Origin: Paenibacillus borealis
GTDB taxonomy: Bacteria; Bacillota; Bacilli; Paenibacillales; Paenibacillaceae
Reading direction: 5' to 3'
DNA length: 64,000 nt
NCBI RefSeq assembly: GCF_000758665.1
Contig: NZ_CP009285.1
Coordinates: forward strand, 4,774,001 to 4,838,000
In this document: piece by piece, positions 24,455-35,936 of the stretch
Numbering within the stretch: the first letter of the stretch is position 1
Layout: each line of letters opens with the position of its first letter
Position numbers and translations under genes: made by a program
Notes under the pieces: model-generated
Told to the model about the DNA's origin: nothing
Database searches by the model: none
What the model saw: only the letters and a program-made list of their open reading frames with translations

Positions 24455-24629
24455 AACGTAAATGCACTCCCTCCAGGCTGTGTCCCGGCATTACCGGGCT
24501 CATAGCTCTATGTTAGCGCCGGCCCCGTTAATGCAACAGGCGCAAAGCCGCCAATTATTTGGACAAATCAATCGGACACGGCGGCCTATGCTATAATAAA
24601 GCCATCTTTTAGCGAAAAAGAGGTTGAAT

Positions 24630-25592
24630 ATGAACGTATTAGATCCCGGTACACAGCACTCCATGGACGGCCGGATGTCCCCGGATATACAGGCTGCTTT
24701 TCATATTTTTGCCGCCCACTGGCGCAAGGTTAACAGGGAGTGGCAATACCCGGTGCATACCCATCCCATGTTCGAGATTAACATCGTTCTGCAGGGGTCA
24801 CAGCAAATGGTGGTCGGCGGGCAGTCCTATACCCAGCACAGCGGTGACATTCTGTTTATCCGTCCGGGTATTGCACACTCCAGCCTGGGCACGGTTTCAG
24901 AGGATGAAATGACCTATTATTGCCTGCATTTCGACATCGATGATCTGGTCCTGCGCCGTTCCCTTATGACGATGGATACCGTCAGCCTTACCGGCAACAC
25001 TCCGGAGCTGCAGGCAATCCGTACGTCGCTTGATGCGATCATCAGCTCGACAATTCTCCCTGAAGCCAGCGATGCCCAGCGGAGCCGGCTGGTAACGCTG
25101 AATGCTTCGCTGCAGCTGTTCACCGCACTCAGCGGCTGGGTGCTGGCCGCAATGCCTTCGCCTGCCCGGGGAACACTGCCGGGGGTTACAGAGAAAACTG
25201 TCGCCCTGGCAAATGCCATTGAAGGACTGCTGCAGGAATCCGTATTCACCGCAGCAGTAACCGGCAGCCGGGCCGGAAGCATTGAAGACATCGCCGCCAA
25301 ACTCGGCTACAGCCCGAACCACTGCAACCGCGCCTTCCGGCAGATCTACGGACTTCCGCCGAGGCAGTATCTCTCCGGCCTGATTATCCGCCATGCCAAG
25401 CTGCTGCTGCTGGATAACAGCCTGTCTGTAGAGAGCATCGCCTACCGGCTCGGCTACCGCGATGTCTCCCATTTCAGCAAACAGTTCAAGCGCTGGACCG
25501 GCCTGCCTCCCATGGGCTACCGCCAGCTTACGGAGGAGCCTGGGAAGACAGACGACGGGGCATCATTCTCTAATACGCGGGGAGGCATTTAA
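24630..25592 (+). CDS. AraC-family transcriptional regulator
   Basis: 320-aa protein. Residues 20-110 form a cupin sensor (WQYPVHTHPMFEINIVLQG, GDILFIRPGIAHSSLG); residues 210-305 carry the AraC double helix-turn-helix (IEDIAAKLGYSPNHCNRAFRQIYGLPPRQYL and VESIAYRLGYRDVSHFSKQFKRWTGLPPMGYR). The ATG at 24630 follows AGAGG by 6 nt. It is divergent from the GH52 gene and its stop overlaps the start of the next cupin gene. A role in xylan-sugar sensing is inferred from context. Confidence 0.88.
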   Translation: MNVLDPGTQHSMDGRMSPDIQAAFHIFAAHWRKVNREWQYPVHTHPMFEINIVLQGSQQMVVGGQSYTQHSGDILFIRPGIAHSSLGTVSEDEMTYYCLHFDIDDLVLRRSLMTMDTVSLTGNTPELQAIRTSLDAIISSTILPEASDAQRSRLVTLNASLQLFTALSGWVLAAMPSPARGTLPGVTEKTVALANAIEGLLQESVFTAAVTGSRAGSIEDIAAKLGYSPNHCNRAFRQIYGLPPRQYLSGLIIRHAKLLLLDNSLSVESIAYRLGYRDVSHFSKQFKRWTGLPPMGYRQLTEEPGKTDDGASFSNTRGGI

Positions 25593-25945
25593 TGAAGATA
25601 TACAATTTCCAACAAGAATCCGGCAAACCCATATCAGCCTTCAATTCCGATTTCATTATCTCCAAGATCATTCATACAGGATCAGATGCTCATATCGGCT
25701 GCGTATATCTTGGTCACCAGGGAGTGATCGGTTATCATCAGGCGACATGTCCGCAGCTGCTGCTGATTATGAACGGTGAAGGATATGTCAGGGGCGGAGA
25801 AGAAGAATTTACAGCGGTCCGGGCAGGCCAAGCTGTCTTCTGGGAGCAGGATGAATGGCATGAGACCCGGACCGATTCGGGAATGACTGCGATTATTATA
25901 GAAAGTGATTCGCTGAATCCTGCTGCCAATATGACACTGGTATAA
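25592..25945 (+). CDS. Small single-domain cupin protein
   Basis: 117-aa protein of cupin fold: residues 35-100 include GVIGYHQATCPQLLLIMNGEGYVRGG and AGQAVFWEQDEWHETRTD. Its ATG overlaps the TAA of the AraC gene by one base (TAATG), so the two are translationally coupled. The set resembles an AraC protein whose sensory cupin has been supplied twice, or a sugar-binding/epimerising partner. No catalytic motif identifies a reaction. Confidence 0.75.
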   Translation: MKIYNFQQESGKPISAFNSDFIISKIIHTGSDAHIGCVYLGHQGVIGYHQATCPQLLLIMNGEGYVRGGEEEFTAVRAGQAVFWEQDEWHETRTDSGMTAIIIESDSLNPAANMTLV

Positions 25946-25988
25946 GAGGGAGCACAATATTGTATTACTCAGCAACCGCTGGTGAATA

Positions 25989-26163
25989 GGACTGAGATTC
26001 CGTTATTTGAGCAAATCAGGCGAAATTACCTGCCAATCGGACTGAGATTCCGCTAAGTGTCCTGCCACGTGTCTTTTGGAGCCCAAAAACACAAGATAGC
26101 GGAATCTCAGTCCGCTTCCGCCTTATGGAGCGTTATTTTGGCAAAATAACGGAATCTCAGTCC
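25989..26163. repeat. Four-site element, GGACTGAG family, copy 1
   Basis: The 17-mer GGACTGAGATTCCGYTA occurs at 25989 and 26039, and inverted at 26097-26113 and 26147-26163. Spacing is 50 bp between the direct pair, 75 bp across the central pair and 50 bp between the inverted pair, giving a 175-bp dyad. The 33-bp spacers and 41-bp centre are unrelated in sequence to those of the second copy at 35762. It lies in the convergent gap between the cupin gene and the permease gene. Confidence 0.93.
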
Positions 26164-26267
26164 ACTTGAGGAGCAAGATCACCCAGATGGCGAATTCGGG
26201 GCGAATTACTTGGTCAATTATCGGCAGATTAGGCACTCAGCGCATCACAAGGCCCTCCTATATATAC

Positions 26268-26311
26268 AAAAACTCCGCAAACCATTACATAATGGCCCGC
26301 GGAGTTTTTTT
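26268..26311. terminator. Bidirectional terminator
   Basis: AAAAACTCCGC pairs with GCGGAGTTTTT across a 20-nt loop, followed on the plus strand by T7 and on the minus strand by a shorter T run. It serves the cupin gene and the ABC permease unit. Confidence 0.85.
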
Positions 26312-26336
26312 ATTTTCCCAGGAGAGCACACACCTC

Positions 26337-27173
26337 TTACCCTTTGGTGGCCCCTGACGCAATTCCCTTAACGAAATACTTCTGGAGGAAGATAAATACG
26401 ATCAGCACAGGCACCACCGACATCGCGGTTCCGGCAAAAATCATATCCCAGCGCGAGGAGAATTCCCCGATATACCGGTAGATTTCTACAACCATCGTCT
26501 TGGCCTGGCCGGAAGGCAGCACCAGCATCGGCATCAGGAAGTCATTCCAGATTCCCAGTCCGTTCAGCACCACCATACTTGCCGTAACCGGTCCGAGCAG
26601 CGGGAAGACGATTCTCCAGAAAATCCCGTAGCGGGAGCAGCCGTCAATCTCTGCCGCCTCTTCAACCTCCCGTGGTATACCTTTGACGAAGCTGGTATAG
26701 AGCAGGCAGCCGAAGCCTACGGCACCGGCGACATAGATCATGATAGGTCCGGCCAGACTGCCGTACAGACCGAGCATTCTCAGCTCCTTGAACAGCGGAA
26801 TCATATACGCCTGGAACGGAATCATCATACCGGCCAGGAAATAGACGAAGACCAGCCGCGTCCAGCGGGCATTTCTGCGTTCAATCGCGTAACCCGCCAT
26901 CGGAATAATCAGCACCTGGGCGACAATCGCCACAACGGTCAGAATCAGGCTGTTGAGGATCGCGCGCGGAAACTCCGTCTCCGTGAGCAGATATTTGAAG
27001 CTGTCTAAGTACAGTGTCTTCGGAAAAGCGATCGCGTCACGCATAATTTCGGCGTTGCTTTTGAACGCGGACATCAGATTAAAGAAAATCGGGAAGAAAA
27101 AAACAACCGCCACCAGGAGCGTAATGACAAACAGGACAATTTCAGTGATTCTCCGCTTGGTCTGCATCGTCAT
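26337..27173 (-). CDS. ABC sugar importer permease (MalG type, CUT1)
   Basis: 278-aa inner membrane permease with six helices. The ABC-docking EAA loop is EEAAEIDGCSRYGIFWRIVFPLLGP near residue 185. It follows the MalF-type permease by one base, with its GGAGG site inside that gene. The two permeases and binding protein at 28197 make a carbohydrate-uptake ABC system with no ATPase gene nearby, so a shared MsmX-type ATPase probably powers it. The sugar is unknown; neighbours suggest an oligosaccharide from plant cell wall. Confidence 0.92.
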   Translation of the reverse strand: MTMQTKRRITEIVLFVITLLVAVVFFFPIFFNLMSAFKSNAEIMRDAIAFPKTLYLDSFKYLLTETEFPRAILNSLILTVVAIVAQVLIIPMAGYAIERRNARWTRLVFVYFLAGMMIPFQAYMIPLFKELRMLGLYGSLAGPIMIYVAGAVGFGCLLYTSFVKGIPREVEEAAEIDGCSRYGIFWRIVFPLLGPVTASMVVLNGLGIWNDFLMPMLVLPSGQAKTMVVEIYRYIGEFSSRWDMIFAGTAMSVVPVLIVFIFLQKYFVKGIASGATKG

Positions 27174-27174
27174 C

Positions 27175-28113
27175 TTAGAGCTGCACCTCCCGTTTCTGCA
27201 GGAATTTAACCTGAATGACCGTAATGATCAGGATAATCAGGAACAGAACCATGGCCAGCGCCGTGCCGAAGCCTTGTCTCAGTTCACCGAAGCCTACTTT
27301 GTAGATAATATAAGTTAATGTCTCTGTCTCAAAACCCGGGCCGCCGTCAGTCATTACGGCAATCTGGTCAAATATCTTCAGCGCGCTGATCATGGAGAGC
27401 ACCATGCACACGGTCATCGAACCCGCAAGCAGCGGGAACGTAATATGCCGGAACTGCTGCCAGCCACCTGCGCCGTCAATGCTGGCCGCTTCATTAAGCT
27501 CCTGCGGAATGCCCTGCAGTCCGGCCAGATAGATGATCATATAATAACCCGCGCCTTTCCAGACCGTTGACAAAATAATCGACAGCATAGCGTATTTCGG
27601 ATTGCCCAGCCAGTCCACGATATAGTCGCCTAAACCGACGGAGGTCAGGATCTGATTAAACACGCCGAAGTTGTAATTCAAAATCATTGCCCAGACAAAG
27701 CCCATGACGATCCCGCTGAGCAGAGTCGGGAAGTAGAAGATGCTTCTGAACAAATTGCGGAACCAGCGTACCTTGTCGACCATTAAAGCCATCGCAATCG
27801 CGGCAATATTCTCAAGCAGCACCAGTGTTACCGTCATAATCATTGTGTTCTTCAAGGCATTATGCACCCGCGGACTCTGGAAAATCTCGATGAAATTGGC
27901 GAAGCCGATATACCGGACATCGCTGCTGATCCCGTCCCATGACGTGAAGCTTAAGTAGACGCTGCCTGCTGTAGGGACGATGACAAACAGTGTATATAAA
28001 AGGAATGACGGCAGGATGAACAACAGCGCGTAGGACTGCCATTTTTTCTTTTTCTTGTGTGGCTTCTCTGCGGCTGTGAATGATTTGTCTGTATTAACAA
28101 TGGATGTAGCCAT
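27175..28113 (-). CDS. ABC sugar importer permease (MalF type, CUT1)
   Basis: 312-aa permease. A basic cytoplasmic start with KPHKKKKKWQSYALLFILPS is followed by six helices and an EAA loop NEAASIDGAGGWQQFRHITFPLL near residue 215. It lies between the binding-protein gene (83 bp upstream) and the MalG-type partner, and forms the heterodimeric channel with the latter. Confidence 0.92.
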   Translation of the reverse strand: MATSIVNTDKSFTAAEKPHKKKKKWQSYALLFILPSFLLYTLFVIVPTAGSVYLSFTSWDGISSDVRYIGFANFIEIFQSPRVHNALKNTMIMTVTLVLLENIAAIAMALMVDKVRWFRNLFRSIFYFPTLLSGIVMGFVWAMILNYNFGVFNQILTSVGLGDYIVDWLGNPKYAMLSIILSTVWKGAGYYMIIYLAGLQGIPQELNEAASIDGAGGWQQFRHITFPLLAGSMTVCMVLSMISALKIFDQIAVMTDGGPGFETETLTYIIYKVGFGELRQGFGTALAMVLFLIILIITVIQVKFLQKREVQL

Positions 28114-28196: not shown

Positions 28197-29549
28197 TTAC
28201 ATTGAATTGGCTTTGACCTGATTGTCATATTCGGTATCGGCCTTCTTCATATAGTCCGTTACGTCCGCATCGTTCACTACCATATCCTGGAGCAGCTTAT
28301 AGTACCAGTTGCGGAATTGCGGAGGAATCAGGTTATCTCCCCACCAGTTGTTGATGGCCAATGATTTGGTTACGTTCGTGTCGGCAATGAGATCAAGTGC
28401 AACCTGCATTTGCTCACTGGTCTCATAGGTTACTTTCTCTTTGGTGGAAGGAATGGCATTGATCGAAGCCAGATAGACCGAGTACTGTTCCGGTTCAAAG
28501 AAGAAGCGGATGAAGTCTTTGATCGCTTCCGTTTTATCGGCATCCTTGGCGGCATCAGTAGATAAGGACCAGCCGGCCGGTGACGGGAGACCGATGACAT
28601 TTAATTTGCCTGCACGGTCCGGAACAGCATAGAAGCCGAACTCGAAGCTTGGGTCAGCTTCAGCGATCTGGGTGAACATCCATGTGCCGGAGAACAGCTG
28701 TGCGGCTTTGCCGGATACCAGAATCGAAGCGGTCTGATTATCTGCGGTGCTCAGCCAGCCTTTATCCACATAGTTCTTGAACAGCTCTTTGAAATCGGTT
28801 ATGCCCTGAACCACATCAGGATCGGCGAAACTGACGGTCTTGGCTGTACGTTTGGAGTTCCAGTCCGGATCTTTGCTGTAGACATCGTCGATCAGGAATT
28901 TATTGACCCAGAAGCCCATATGGAAGATATCCTTGCCGCCTACTACCAGCGGGGAGATACCTGTAGCTTTCAATTTTTCCTGGATGGCAATGAACTCGTC
29001 ATAGGTTTTGGGAAGCTCGGTGATCCCTGCGTCAGCGTAGGCTTTTTTGCTGTAAATGATCCCTTGCGGGGCGTTCACCTGCATTGGAGCGTTCCATACC
29101 TTGCCGTCCACCTGTGGAGGAGACTCGAACAGATCCAGCAGATCAGCGGGCAGCTCTACGATTTTGCCGGCATCCGCGAATACCTGGGTATCCCGCATTT
29201 CCACGAGATCCGGGAACTCGCCAACCGCATCCTTGGTCTTCAGCCAGTCCAGATAAGCGGCAGATGAAGTTTCACTTAAGTCTTTGATGGTCACGTTAGG
29301 ATTGGCTTCCATGAACTTCTTAACGGTATCGGCAATGGCCTTCTTGGTCGCCGGATCACCTGACGCATAACCGATGGTGAAGCTGACGTCTTTCTTGGCA
29401 GCATCAGTTGCTGCTGTATTTCCTGCCGGAGCTTCAGTCGCCGCTGCGTTGCCGCCGCTGGCATTGTTATTGTTATTTCCGCCGCATGCGGTAAGTACAG
29501 TTGTTGCTGCGAGCAGCATGACGGATAATTTCGTAATGGTGTTCTTCAT
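28197..29549 (-). CDS. Sugar-binding lipoprotein of the ABC importer
   Basis: 450-aa family 1 extracellular solute-binding protein. Signal peptide MKNTITKLSVMLLAATTVLTACGG has the lipobox LTAC (Cys22), followed by an Asn/Ala/Thr-rich linker. The mature part includes FTIGYASGDPATKKAI, GEFPDLVEMRDT, APQGIIYSKKAYADAG and NNWWGDNLIPPQFRNW. GGGGAGG lies 11 nt before the chosen ATG. It has its own promoter and cre-like site (29614-29666), so importer expression is separable from the two-component unit upstream. It is a close paralogue of the protein at 29792-31144. Confidence 0.92.
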   Translation of the reverse strand: MKNTITKLSVMLLAATTVLTACGGNNNNNASGGNAAATEAPAGNTAATDAAKKDVSFTIGYASGDPATKKAIADTVKKFMEANPNVTIKDLSETSSAAYLDWLKTKDAVGEFPDLVEMRDTQVFADAGKIVELPADLLDLFESPPQVDGKVWNAPMQVNAPQGIIYSKKAYADAGITELPKTYDEFIAIQEKLKATGISPLVVGGKDIFHMGFWVNKFLIDDVYSKDPDWNSKRTAKTVSFADPDVVQGITDFKELFKNYVDKGWLSTADNQTASILVSGKAAQLFSGTWMFTQIAEADPSFEFGFYAVPDRAGKLNVIGLPSPAGWSLSTDAAKDADKTEAIKDFIRFFFEPEQYSVYLASINAIPSTKEKVTYETSEQMQVALDLIADTNVTKSLAINNWWGDNLIPPQFRNWYYKLLQDMVVNDADVTDYMKKADTEYDNQVKANSM

Positions 29550-29613
29550 ATCTTTAGTAACCTCCCCTTTGGTGTACAACCCGGAAACTGCCGGCCGATG
29601 TGTGCATCACCGC

Positions 29614-29791: not shown

Positions 29792-31144
29792 TCACTGCCG
29801 GTATTCCTGTACCTGCCTGTCGTATTCAGTATCGGCCCGTTTCATGTATTCTAGTACATCGCCATCCTTCACAACCATCTCCTGCAGCAGCTTGTAGAAC
29901 CAGTTGCGGAACTGCGGAGGAATCAGATTGTCTCCCCACCAGTTATTGATCATCAGCGACTTGGTCACCTTAGGGTCAGCCATCAGGTCAAGCACTACCT
30001 GCATTTGTTCCCCAGGCTCACGCTTAAGCTCCTGTTTGGTGGAAGGAATAGAATCGATGCTGTCCAGGAACCTGGAATAGGGCTCCGGTGAGAAAAAGAA
30101 CCGGATGAAGTCTTCGATCGCCTGCTTTTTGCGCGGGTCCCCCGCAGCCTGGGCAGACAGCGACCAGCCGGTAGGCGACTGCAGGCCGACCACATTCACT
30201 TTCCCTTTGCGGTCCGGAACAGCATAGAAGCCGAATTCAAAGCCGGGATCCGCTGCCTTGATCTGTGAGAACATCCAGGAGCCGGAGAACAGCTGCGCAG
30301 CCTTGCCGGATACCAGAATGGACGCCGTCTGGTTATCCCCTGTGCCAAGCCAGCCTTGATCCACATCATTCCTGAACAGCTGCTTGAAATCTGTCATCGC
30401 CCGGACGACATTATCATCGGCAAACCTGACTTTACCGGCATTCCGTTTCGCATTCCAGTCCGGATCGGCGGCATATACATCATCAATCAGAAATTTATTG
30501 ACCCAGAACCCCAGATGAAAAATATCTTTGCCGCCGACGACGAGCGGAGTGATTCCGCTTGCCCGCAATCTTTCCTGGATCTCCAGAAATTCAGCATAGG
30601 TTGCCGGAAGTGCCTTAATGCCTGCATCGGCATAAGCTTTCTTACTGTAAATAATCCCCTGCGGTGCAGAGACAAACAGCGGGGCATTCCATACCTTGCC
30701 GTCTATCTTCGGCGGATGGTCGAACAAGTCTGCTATATCATCCGGCAGCGGAACAATCTTATCTGCACCGGCAAAAGCCTCGGTGTCCCTCATCTCTACG
30801 AGATCAGGGAACTCACCCACGGCATCCTTAACCTTCAGCCAGTCCATATAGGCAGAGGAGCTAGTCTCACTGACATCCTGAATCAGGATATCCGGATAGG
30901 CTTCCATAAAAGCCTTGATGGTAACCTCGATGGCTTGCTTGGTCGCCGCATCGCCAGAGGCGTAACCAATGGTAAAGCTCACTTTCCCGCTTCCAGGCGC
31001 CGTATCTGAGCTGCTATTCGGATCAGCCGCATGATTTCCGGCAATCCCGCCTGATCCGGCCTGGTCTCTGCAGCCGCACAGGATAAGGGCTGCCACCAGC
31101 GGCAATATCGCCAGTCTCACGTTTGTAACCTTCTGTATCGGCAT
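29792..31144 (-). CDS. Second sugar-binding lipoprotein, linked to the sensor kinase
   Basis: 450-aa paralogue of the importer's binding protein, the same mature length and long shared stretches (GEFPDLVEMRDT, APQGIIYSKKAYADAGI, VGGKDIFH, DNQTASILVSGKAAQLFSG, NNWWGDNLIPPQFRNW). Its signal peptide differs: ILPLVAALILCGC with lipobox LILCGC. The ATG at 31144 follows AGGAGGTCACAGGGG and is 14 bp past the kinase stop, so it is transcribed with the kinase and response regulator. That placement suggests a role in presenting ligand to the sensor, or an alternative receptor for the importer; both are inference. Confidence 0.88.
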   Translation of the reverse strand: MPIQKVTNVRLAILPLVAALILCGCRDQAGSGGIAGNHAADPNSSSDTAPGSGKVSFTIGYASGDAATKQAIEVTIKAFMEAYPDILIQDVSETSSSAYMDWLKVKDAVGEFPDLVEMRDTEAFAGADKIVPLPDDIADLFDHPPKIDGKVWNAPLFVSAPQGIIYSKKAYADAGIKALPATYAEFLEIQERLRASGITPLVVGGKDIFHLGFWVNKFLIDDVYAADPDWNAKRNAGKVRFADDNVVRAMTDFKQLFRNDVDQGWLGTGDNQTASILVSGKAAQLFSGSWMFSQIKAADPGFEFGFYAVPDRKGKVNVVGLQSPTGWSLSAQAAGDPRKKQAIEDFIRFFFSPEPYSRFLDSIDSIPSTKQELKREPGEQMQVVLDLMADPKVTKSLMINNWWGDNLIPPQFRNWFYKLLQEMVVKDGDVLEYMKRADTEYDRQVQEYRQ

Positions 31145-31158
31145 CCCCTGTGACCTCC

Positions 31159-32928
31159 TCATTCTGTGATAACCGGGAACGTCAGCGTAATAGACGTCCC
31201 GACATGCTCTCTGCTGTTCACAGACAGGCCATACGCCTCCCCGAAGCTGGAGCGGATGCGCTCATGCACATTTTTCATACCGACATTCTTACTTGGAGCC
31301 TCCGGGTCTTCCAGAATCTTGTTGATGCGGGACAGCGTTTCCCTGCTCATCCCCACGCCATCGTCATATATCGTAATTGCCACCACTTGCTCTCTCCGTT
31401 CGACCGTAATGCCGACAGTCCCTTTTCCCTGCAGGCGCAGGCCATGCTGAACCGCATTCTCCACCATCGGCTGCAGGGACAGCTTCAGGATAGGCCAGTC
31501 CAGATTAACATCAGGGGCAATGTCCAGATGCAGCTCGAAGCGGTTCTCATACCGCACAGAAATGATATAGAAGTAATTCTGCAGATGGGCGAGCTCACTG
31601 GCAATGCTTACGCGGTCTTCCCCGTAATCGATGACGTATTTCAGCTCATTGGAAAGTGCCAGAATCATATCCGCCACTTCCCCCGCTTCCTTATCCACGG
31701 CGTTCATCCGGATCACTTCAAGGGTGTTATACAGGTAATGGGGCCGGATCTGGCTCTTCAGCGCGTTCAGCTCGGTCTGTTTCTGCTTAATCTGGGCCAC
31801 ATAGGCCTCATCAATATAGACCTGCAGCCGCTCCACCATCCGGTTGAACCCGTGGGCCAGCCTGCCCATCTCATCATTGCTGTTCACGGAGAGCTGGATA
31901 TCCAGCTTGCCCGACTCCACCACGGCCATCTGCCTGATCAGCTCCCGGATGGGAGCCGCGAGACGTCTGGAGAACCAGGCACCCATGACAATCATTACAA
32001 AAGCACAGATGCCAATGGCAATATACACCGTTGCCCGCGCCGACAGCAGCTGTTCGAACAGGTTGCCGCGGTGGATTTTGGCAATGACCTGGCCATTCAA
32101 AAAAGGGATGCTCTCACTGAGCACAATCATCTCATCATTGGATTGAGCAGCAGTTGGAACCCCCGCCGTACCGGCAGGCTGGTTGCTGAAATAGGTCCGC
32201 CCCTCCCCGTCGAGCAGATACAGCTCATCCTTCTCCCCAAGACTCAGCTCCCGGAAGAACTGCTGGAATAACGAGGTGTCGATATCAAGAAAAAGCGTTC
32301 CGACTACCTTCGGCTCTTTGGTCACCCGTCCGGAGGTATCAATCAGGCTGCGCCCGATCGTGAACACCTGGCGGTCTGAACCATAGAAATAACTGTCCTG
32401 ATGGGTCGGGAAAATAGCCACCTTCGAAGGGTCATCTGCCATGGCGGACAGCCACTCCGCATTCGGAACCGTCTCCATATTCAGCGACCGGTTGCTGCGC
32501 TCCTGTACATACATTTTACCGTCAGACTGGCGGATGAACTGGACACTTGAGATATATGAATCACTGAACAGTACCGTCTTCAGGAAAGACTCTATCGGAA
32601 TGGTGTTGATCTGCTCCAGCTCATTCACATTCTGTGTCTGGTTCTGCGAATAGCTCTCGATGAACCCTTCATAACGGCCCGTATACATCAATTTGGACAC
32701 TTCATTATACTGATTGAACGCAGAATTCAGATTATAGCTCATATAGAGCACCATTTGCTGCAGATTGCTGGTCGTATACCGCTCCACATAACCGGAGAAG
32801 GTCTGTACGGAGAAAAAACTCAGCGCAAACAGCGGAATTAGCCCGACCAGCAGGAAGGATGCAGAAAATTTAACGAAAATACTCTTCGGTCCCCTTCCCC
32901 AAATCGGCATAGGCCATCCTCTTTTCAC
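31159..32928 (-). CDS. YesM-type sensor histidine kinase
   Basis: 589-aa membrane kinase. One helix near residues 20-42 and another near 293-312 bracket a large extracellular dCache-like sensor; a HAMP domain (LAAPIRELIRQMAVVESG...NDEMGRLAHGFNRM) follows, then a HisKA_7TM-like His_kinase domain with acceptor His in SQIRPHYLYNTLEVIRM and the N-box LQPMVENAVQHGL plus DDGVGM. The start may be GTG at 32928 or ATG at 32910 (MPIWGRGPKS), which has GAGG 7 nt upstream. It lies 23 bp behind its response regulator. Confidence 0.92.
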   Translation of the reverse strand: MKRGWPMPIWGRGPKSIFVKFSASFLLVGLIPLFALSFFSVQTFSGYVERYTTSNLQQMVLYMSYNLNSAFNQYNEVSKLMYTGRYEGFIESYSQNQTQNVNELEQINTIPIESFLKTVLFSDSYISSVQFIRQSDGKMYVQERSNRSLNMETVPNAEWLSAMADDPSKVAIFPTHQDSYFYGSDRQVFTIGRSLIDTSGRVTKEPKVVGTLFLDIDTSLFQQFFRELSLGEKDELYLLDGEGRTYFSNQPAGTAGVPTAAQSNDEMIVLSESIPFLNGQVIAKIHRGNLFEQLLSARATVYIAIGICAFVMIVMGAWFSRRLAAPIRELIRQMAVVESGKLDIQLSVNSNDEMGRLAHGFNRMVERLQVYIDEAYVAQIKQKQTELNALKSQIRPHYLYNTLEVIRMNAVDKEAGEVADMILALSNELKYVIDYGEDRVSIASELAHLQNYFYIISVRYENRFELHLDIAPDVNLDWPILKLSLQPMVENAVQHGLRLQGKGTVGITVERREQVVAITIYDDGVGMSRETLSRINKILEDPEAPSKNVGMKNVHERIRSSFGEAYGLSVNSREHVGTSITLTFPVITE

Positions 32929-35761: not shown

Positions 35762-35936
35762 GGACTGAGATTCCGTTATTTCGCTATATTCTCTCTTTTT
35801 GGAACGCTCGCGGACTGAGATTCCGTTATTGGCGGCCATTTGCTCTGAAAAGAGCCATTCCGCATCACTTAGCGGAATCTCAGTCCGCAAACTGCCGGAA
35901 TGGCCTCTTTTCCGGCAAATAAAGGCCTCTAAGTCC
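35762..35936. repeat. Four-site element, GGACTGAG family, copy 2
   Basis: GGACTGAGATTCCGTTA occurs at 35762 and 35812; inverted TAGCGGAATCTCAGTCC at 35870-35886; and a decayed inverted copy TAAAGGCCTCTAAGTCC at 35920-35936 (13 of 17 bases match). Spacing is 50, 75 and 50 bp, identical to the copy at 25989. The two direct sites share a further 10 bp on their left (GAACGCTCGC). The element lies in a tandem gap between the DUF218 and APH-like genes. Confidence 0.92.

Follow-up and report, generated by a model that had tools for sequence, protein, structure and literature searches.

The locus and its four-site unit

The window (the whole stretch of 64,000 nucleotides analysed here, positions 4,774,001 to 4,838,000 of contig NZ_CP009285.1 of Paenibacillus borealis, hereafter the host) carries, at a locus with a cupin gene (25592-26336) and beside the end of a leftward permease gene, a non-coding unit of four short sites, two direct and two inverted. 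The features are listed below; profile R1 is a sequence-only model built from 19 host copies of the unit, the window copy (25983..26168) among them.

25989-26163, whole four-site unit: 175 bp in total, steps of 50, 61, and 50 bp, read directly from the sequence
25983..26168, + strand, whole span covered by the R1 match: + strand score 135.9 bits, - strand score 76.8
25989..26005, + strand, site 1, GGACTGAGATTCCGTTA: direct reading and genome-wide geometry
26006..26038, no strand, left spacer, 33 bp: sequence differs among copies, length mostly retained (comparison of copies and orthologues)
26039..26055, + strand, site 2, GGACTGAGATTCCGCTA: direct reading
26056..26096, no strand, centre, 41 bp: alignment of copies
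26097..26113, - strand, site 3, inverted (reverse complement): direct reading
26114..26146, no strand, right spacer, 33 bp: comparison of copies and orthologues
26147..26163, - strand, site 4, inverted (reverse complement): direct reading
26268..26311, - strand, intrinsic terminator closing the leftward permease gene: CTCCGC/GCGGAG stem with a T-run on either side
35762-35936, + strand, second copy in the window, 9.8 kb away: 99.2 bits with R1 on the + strand, 82.4 on the - strand

The layout is as given in an earlier note on this DNA, which described two direct and two inverted 17-mers, 50 bp apart within each pair, around a 41-bp centre. The centre holds an asymmetric motif, ACAAGATA, before site 3; in the alignments it is one of the features by which the element is oriented. 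The minus-strand T-run of the terminator ends 104 bp from site 4. The second copy has the same unit geometry, with three exact sites (35762-35778, 35812-35828, and the inverted 35870-35886) and a decayed fourth (35920-35936). All seven exact matches of the 14-mer GGACTGAGATTCCG in the window lie inside these two copies; with three mismatches allowed there are 10 matches vs. 6.4 expected from shuffles, and the loose count within the window is thus uninformative by itself.

By eye, a short inverted repeat (TATTACTCAGC..GCTGGTGAATA) stands directly before site 1 of the window copy, at 25960-25988, and the left flanks of other host copies often have one in the same place (e.g., CCTCC..GGAGG at 5378005). 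Elsewhere in the window, two adjacent and similar minus-strand reading frames (28197-29579 and 29792-31162) have the look of putative sugar-binding lipoproteins.

A dispersed family with fixed geometry in the host chromosome

When searched with at most one mismatch, the 14-mer has 67 matches in the 8,156,808-bp host chromosome and the reversed control pattern has none. The matches group into 33 clusters, within which 45 of 48 distances are exactly 50, 61, 111, or 161 bp, the other three being off by one; with the gap of the inner pair left free between 37 and 66 bp, 24 inner pairs were found in the host genome, 22 at 75 bp and two at 74 bp. The constant distances proposed in the earlier note are thereby borne out genome-wide, and the random spacing of 17-mers that it had named as a refutation does not occur. 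Its same-face argument took 50 bp as about five helical turns and is weak: with a turn of 10.5 bp the distance comes to 4.76 turns, which would place paired sites not quite on one face of the DNA.

Eleven of the 33 clusters consist of a single match. Seven of these were inspected, and six have further decayed sites no more than 1 bp from the family spacing (one of the six with two sites only); the remaining four single-match clusters fall inside elements already catalogued. The seventh inspected cluster, at position 661936 of the host chromosome (L002), is an exact 14-mer that lies within a long reading frame and has no second site nearby. Over 24 host copies, the mean information per column is 1.03-1.79 bits in the sites, 0.65-0.71 in the spacers, and 0.29 and 0.31 in the flanks, in a profile with a few rows wrongly oriented; orientation is corrected in the 19-copy alignment. 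Copies lacking one 50-bp unit also occur in the host. The host unit at 25989-26163 is confirmed as a member of a dispersed family; the observation of the earlier note was correct and understated the matter.

Three loci (L135 in genome G002; L163 and L166 in the host) have gained or lost a unit of about 50 bp, as if by exchange between direct sites. Other repeat families share gaps with the element in the host: tandem GATGCTTAGCGGAGTTGGC units and CTTCCGGCGGAATCAGGGGCATTTC units, in the left flank of L164 and the right flank of L143. A small hairpin module with a sequence close to ATCACCCTAACGGGTGA recurs in the right flanks of the host copies at 5825116 and 2844415 and at the outer end of the longer repeat form of G002 described below.

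Distribution in the genus and family

At an E value of 0.1, with both strands counted, R1 gives at least 96 matches in the host (G000), at least 125 in G040, and at least 114 in G058; these are lower bounds, as 150 of about 1900 candidates were scored per genome. The genus and family searches were run with stricter filters. At E 0.01, 74 of 100 genus genomes were matched, the host included, and 26 were without a match; another search of the genus for the spread of the element gave 11 of 100 genomes. At E 1e-4, 136 of 295 family genomes were matched, in 14 of 19 genera. Most of the listed matches cover almost the full model. Scanning the genome and its relatives, a check that the earlier note had suggested, returned a family far beyond the window.

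Twenty copies aligned from other genera again have four sites, with the core CGGACnnAGAnnCCGYTATT and spacers that cannot be aligned. By the cut-offs chosen, 30 of 49 copies (29 from the genus and 20 from other genera) have exactly the same geometry, and several of the remaining 19 deviate by one or two bases in a single step. Larger insertions are present in two copies, G029 (8 bp; excluded from the 49-copy count) and L325 (6 bp). The array is two direct and two inverted sites of about 20 bp that share this core, at steps of 50, 61, and 50 bp. In some copies from other genera, a site reads TAACGG-N9-CCGTTA (e.g., L326 site 2), an internal dyad that would suit one dimer per site.

By eye, in a comparison of the window locus (25592-26336) with loci L261, L263, L264, L265, and L277, the cupin gene is present without the element in G080 and G055, and G094, G084, and G049 have neither the gene nor the element there. 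Copies are gained and lost, as seen in the losses of 50-bp units and in the G080 and G055 cupin loci. Searches of plasmid and phage collections with the 271-bp region, and of viral contigs with the two-site pattern, gave no match.

Constraint on the sites at orthologous loci

Orthologous loci of the host, G058, and G040 were paired by their flanking sequence with the element masked. Of 53 candidate pairs, 22 were dropped on account of a flank that matched over less than 500 bp or more than 2100 bp, and the 31 with both flanks make up 17 locus groups. An earlier ungapped comparison had included unit-deleted copies, and in it the outer sites hardly differed; an earlier gapped run had picked the pairs with the smallest gaps and excluded three groups, which lowered the indel counts. 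The values given here come from gapped alignment, with pairs picked by flank score and all 17 groups counted. The comparison covers copies found by the profile, so that decayed copies are missed.

Differences among the three species fall on 45 of 1138 site positions (4.0%) and on 211 of 1792 spacer positions (11.8%), and the rate is lower in the sites than in the spacers in all 17 groups. Flanks, which are partly coding sequence, differ at 1179 of 7904 positions (14.9%). Indel events per kb are fewest within sites (3.5), more frequent within spacers (8.4), and most frequent within flanks (27.2); seven of the 17 groups have no indel across the 175 bp, and the others have some, including gaps of unit size. 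Slow sites together with few spacer indels are the pattern that selection on both the words and their spacing would give. The claim that the sites are kept and the spacers are not holds up in this comparison, and spacers as conserved as the sites, which would have spoken for plain duplication, are not found.

Fold and covariation

Another proposal for the unit is a folded RNA or a single-strand hairpin, with nested stems that join site 1 to site 4 and site 2 to site 3. The window copy folds far better than its shuffles (z -8.8 and -9.8); this strong fold arises because the sites are inverted, and any such inverted repeat would give it. In alignment A3 (29 exact-geometry copies from many genomes, L327 with its first site out of register being omitted from the 30), the stems outdo slid versions of themselves (77.9% vs. 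31-44% of cells paired), as inverted identical words must, and one or more two-sided changes are seen in 15 of the 40 pairs.

Set against these points, RNAalifold gives a covariation term of 0 for the 19 host copies. The pairing in A3 is 77.9% vs. 76.9% in shuffled columns, a level reached by 42 of 500 shuffles; the covariation score of 0.124 vs. 0.112 was reached by 50 of 500; the 15 pairs with two-sided changes compare with 16.3 in shuffles; and one column pair fails to pair in 18 of the 29 copies. Over 58 copies, the site-site agreement ratios are near the composition expectation for the would-be partners (site 1 with site 4, 1.004; site 2 with site 3, 1.019), and the highest ratio (1.045) belongs to sites 1 and 3, a combination that would not pair. 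Rfam has no match at the gathering threshold in the whole window, and at E values up to 5 there is one chance match in 24500-27500, outside the element. The covariation check thus yielded no excess over shuffles for the nested stems that the earlier note had allowed for, and a fold leaves the lack of covariation unexplained. We regard this explanation as largely refuted and very improbable. A DNA array that would be bound by a protein fits best and is favoured over a folded RNA. Of the readings offered before, protein-binding sites agree most closely with the slow sites and constant distances; the binding protein itself is putative.

Gene context and orientation relative to replication

Neighbouring genes were called with a codon-weighted ORF caller for 80 copies, 77 of which have both neighbours called. 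The description of the copies as dispersed and intergenic proved sound, as 75 of these 77 overlap no called gene. The 3' end faces the element in 71 of the 77 copies for the right-hand gene and in 38 for the left-hand gene. None of the 77 lies in a divergent gap, vs. 4 of 27 comparison gaps from the same loci and 3 of 16 gaps in the window. Among comparison gaps of at least 200 bp, 0 of 27 are convergent in the same loci but 6 of 16 in the window; since the window already has so many, no convergent enrichment is claimed.

Such placement would be expected of a 3'-end element that acts on transcription or mRNA (an extra terminator, roadblock, or insulator) for the upstream leading-strand gene, for which the position of 71 of 77 copies after the 3' end of the right-hand gene and the lack of divergent gaps both speak. 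Yet in 43 of 72 such copies a separate terminator, 26 to 928 bp away from site 4, stands between the right-hand gene and the element. In addition, the host and G058 have 23 convergent gaps, in which the element follows the 3' ends of both genes, and in 20 of them its orientation follows replication; replication, not the gene alone, therefore goes with direction. We consider a role of this kind improbable.

The asymmetry of the centre and spacers gives every copy a direction (as in the two strand scores of the window copy, 135.9 vs. 76.8 bits). The direction of replication was taken from dnaA positions, with the terminus assumed to lie opposite, on the main contig and with the better strand used at each place. 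In the host, GC skew agrees with dnaA, being positive at 16 of the 17 loci of one arm and at none of the 15 of the other. Of the 203 listed copies in ten genus genomes, 178 are directed toward the origin, as are 69 of the 71 that score at least 100 bits; one of the two exceptions at that score sits 0.516 of the way round the chromosome, beside the assumed terminus. Among the listed copies, the ratios of toward to away are 30:2 (G000), 29:4 (G058), 26:1 (G047), 51:3 (G052), 6:0 (G066), 8:1 (G080), 8:2 (G086), 10:4 (G084), 9:7 (G083), and 1:1 (G074); a longer list gives 6:6 for G074 and 8:3 for G045. The corresponding ratios in other genera are 14:0 (g18), 29:36 (g17), 2:4 (g5), 1:2 (g2), and 0:2 (g13). 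Polarity toward the origin is real, yet it is not general, being weak or absent in G083, G084, G074, G045, and genus g17. Where polarity is lacking in other genera, the scores of the two strands are often almost equal, and direction may then be ill defined.

A longer form and the case for mobility

In G002, 18 of 19 copies are contained in a longer repeat, and G052 also has a long form; the four-site unit is internal to the long form and does not lie at its ends. Median core identity is 90% in G002 (with L142 the odd one out), 73% in G052, and 69% among the 19 host copies; the G002 copies therefore multiplied recently, and those of G052 are more mixed. In 12 of 38 copies of G002 and G052 (6 of 18 in G002 alone), the T-run of an opposite-strand terminator ends 99-104 bp from site 4, as it does in the window copy at 104 bp; in the other copies the T-run is nearer or farther, and the detector found none in 14 of the 38. 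These T-run positions would be accounted for if copies inserted next to terminators, into the template of the lagging strand.

These features are compatible with a mobile element that is non-autonomous and purely selfish (MITE- or REPIN-like, with no host function), in which the four sites would be transposase sites, two per end, acted on in a single-stranded lagging-strand template near terminators. In its favour are the long form in both genomes, the high identity in G002, the T-run distances, the strand polarity in part of the family, and the presence of Y1 transposases in 56 of 100 genus genomes. On the other side, the host has no match for Y1_Tnp, the sole transposase family looked for, and of 12 Y1 loci in relatives one alone (L225) is accompanied by a partial element, which lies some 0.9 kb away from the gene and does not flank it. 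The four-site unit lies inside the long form rather than at its ends. The sites change more slowly than the spacers at fixed loci in all 17 groups, so that selection after insertion is needed, and a purely selfish element leaves this unexplained. We see this account as a contender that probably does not hold.

A mobile origin, one of the options considered in the earlier note, is supported by the long form in G002 and G052, but Y1 has no match in the host. No clean target duplication was seen by eye: G080 and G055 have the cupin gene but the gap resisted alignment. The comparison of empty sites that the earlier note had recommended likewise gave no clean empty site at the window locus, where G094, G084, and G049 lack the cupin gene too.

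Relation to known systems

Small repeats of Firmicutes include bcr1 in the Bacillus cereus group and BOX in pneumococcus, which are mobile-looking, modular, intergenic, and non-coding; we know of no four-site geometry, replication polarity, or site-only constraint in either. The ends of Tn7, Mu, and Tn552 have two or more transposase sites each and are inverted relative to each other, and one pathway of Tn7 has a replication-linked orientation. Unlike these, the array has yielded no transposase (in the search for Y1), defined ends, or clean target duplication. It resembles MITEs in being short, non-coding, present in many copies, and built of inverted repeats. To our knowledge, no repeat with four sites at 50/61/50 bp has been described. 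Among the open-licence papers listed for Paenibacillus or Paenibacillaceae, judged by titles and the starts of abstracts, none was taken to deal with this element; a 13-base site string occurs in one paper, on single-cell amplification.

REPINs and REP doublets, which are associated with RAYT transposases, consist of short inverted conserved words at preferred distances (PMC3116915, PMC3733652). They resemble the array in being extragenic, high in copy number, and less conserved in the spacers than in the words. They differ from it in several respects. A REPIN has two sites rather than four; the GTAG or CGTC tag that ends a palindromic REP is absent here, where by inspection of the alignments the words begin CGGAC and end CCGYTATT; the REPIN hairpin is kept by compensatory changes, of which the array has no excess over shuffled columns; and the RAYT (Y1) gene is flanked by repeats, whereas the host has no Y1 and the partial element at L225 is not flanking. 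A further difference is that orthologous copies in three species have sites that change more slowly than spacers.

Group IIC introns insert at intrinsic terminators, and introns without an endonuclease are described as primed from replication forks (PMC4424553). Part of the long form here similarly meets terminator T-runs, at 99-104 bp in the 12 copies noted above. No Rfam match to group II intron RNA (domain V and the like) was found at five G002 and five G052 long-form loci. We place the array among the dispersed intergenic repeats and give a smaller chance to its being something new.

Interpretation

The unit at 25989-26163 may be one copy of an old dispersed chromosomal repeat whose four-site array serves as DNA on which a sequence-specific protein sits at several sites simultaneously, a reading to which we give about an even chance. 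The most economical account is that a mobile repeat turned into a four-site putative protein-binding array or had one from the start. A sequence-specific protein would bind the sites, and the bound protein would bridge them into one complex. Copies would have spread by inserting next to terminators in the template of the lagging strand. The host may now keep them for a role at the level of the chromosome, e.g., to bundle, to insulate, or to mark the 3' side of leading-strand genes.

A bolder proposal is that the array is a new class of chromosome-organising element: four sites, polarised with replication in part of the family, placed after genes, kept across a bacterial family, and bridged by a putative protein, spread by mobility and then adopted by the host. 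We put this forward tentatively and consider it rather unlikely as a whole.

Beyond what the earlier note had seen, the element has replication polarity, placement after genes, and a spread through a bacterial family. Dispersed bacterial repeats are often assumed to be neutral or selfish. Words that change more slowly than their spacers at fixed places in three species, together with an orientation to replication in part of the family, make this repeat a testable case for a protein that would read multi-site DNA arrays along the chromosome.
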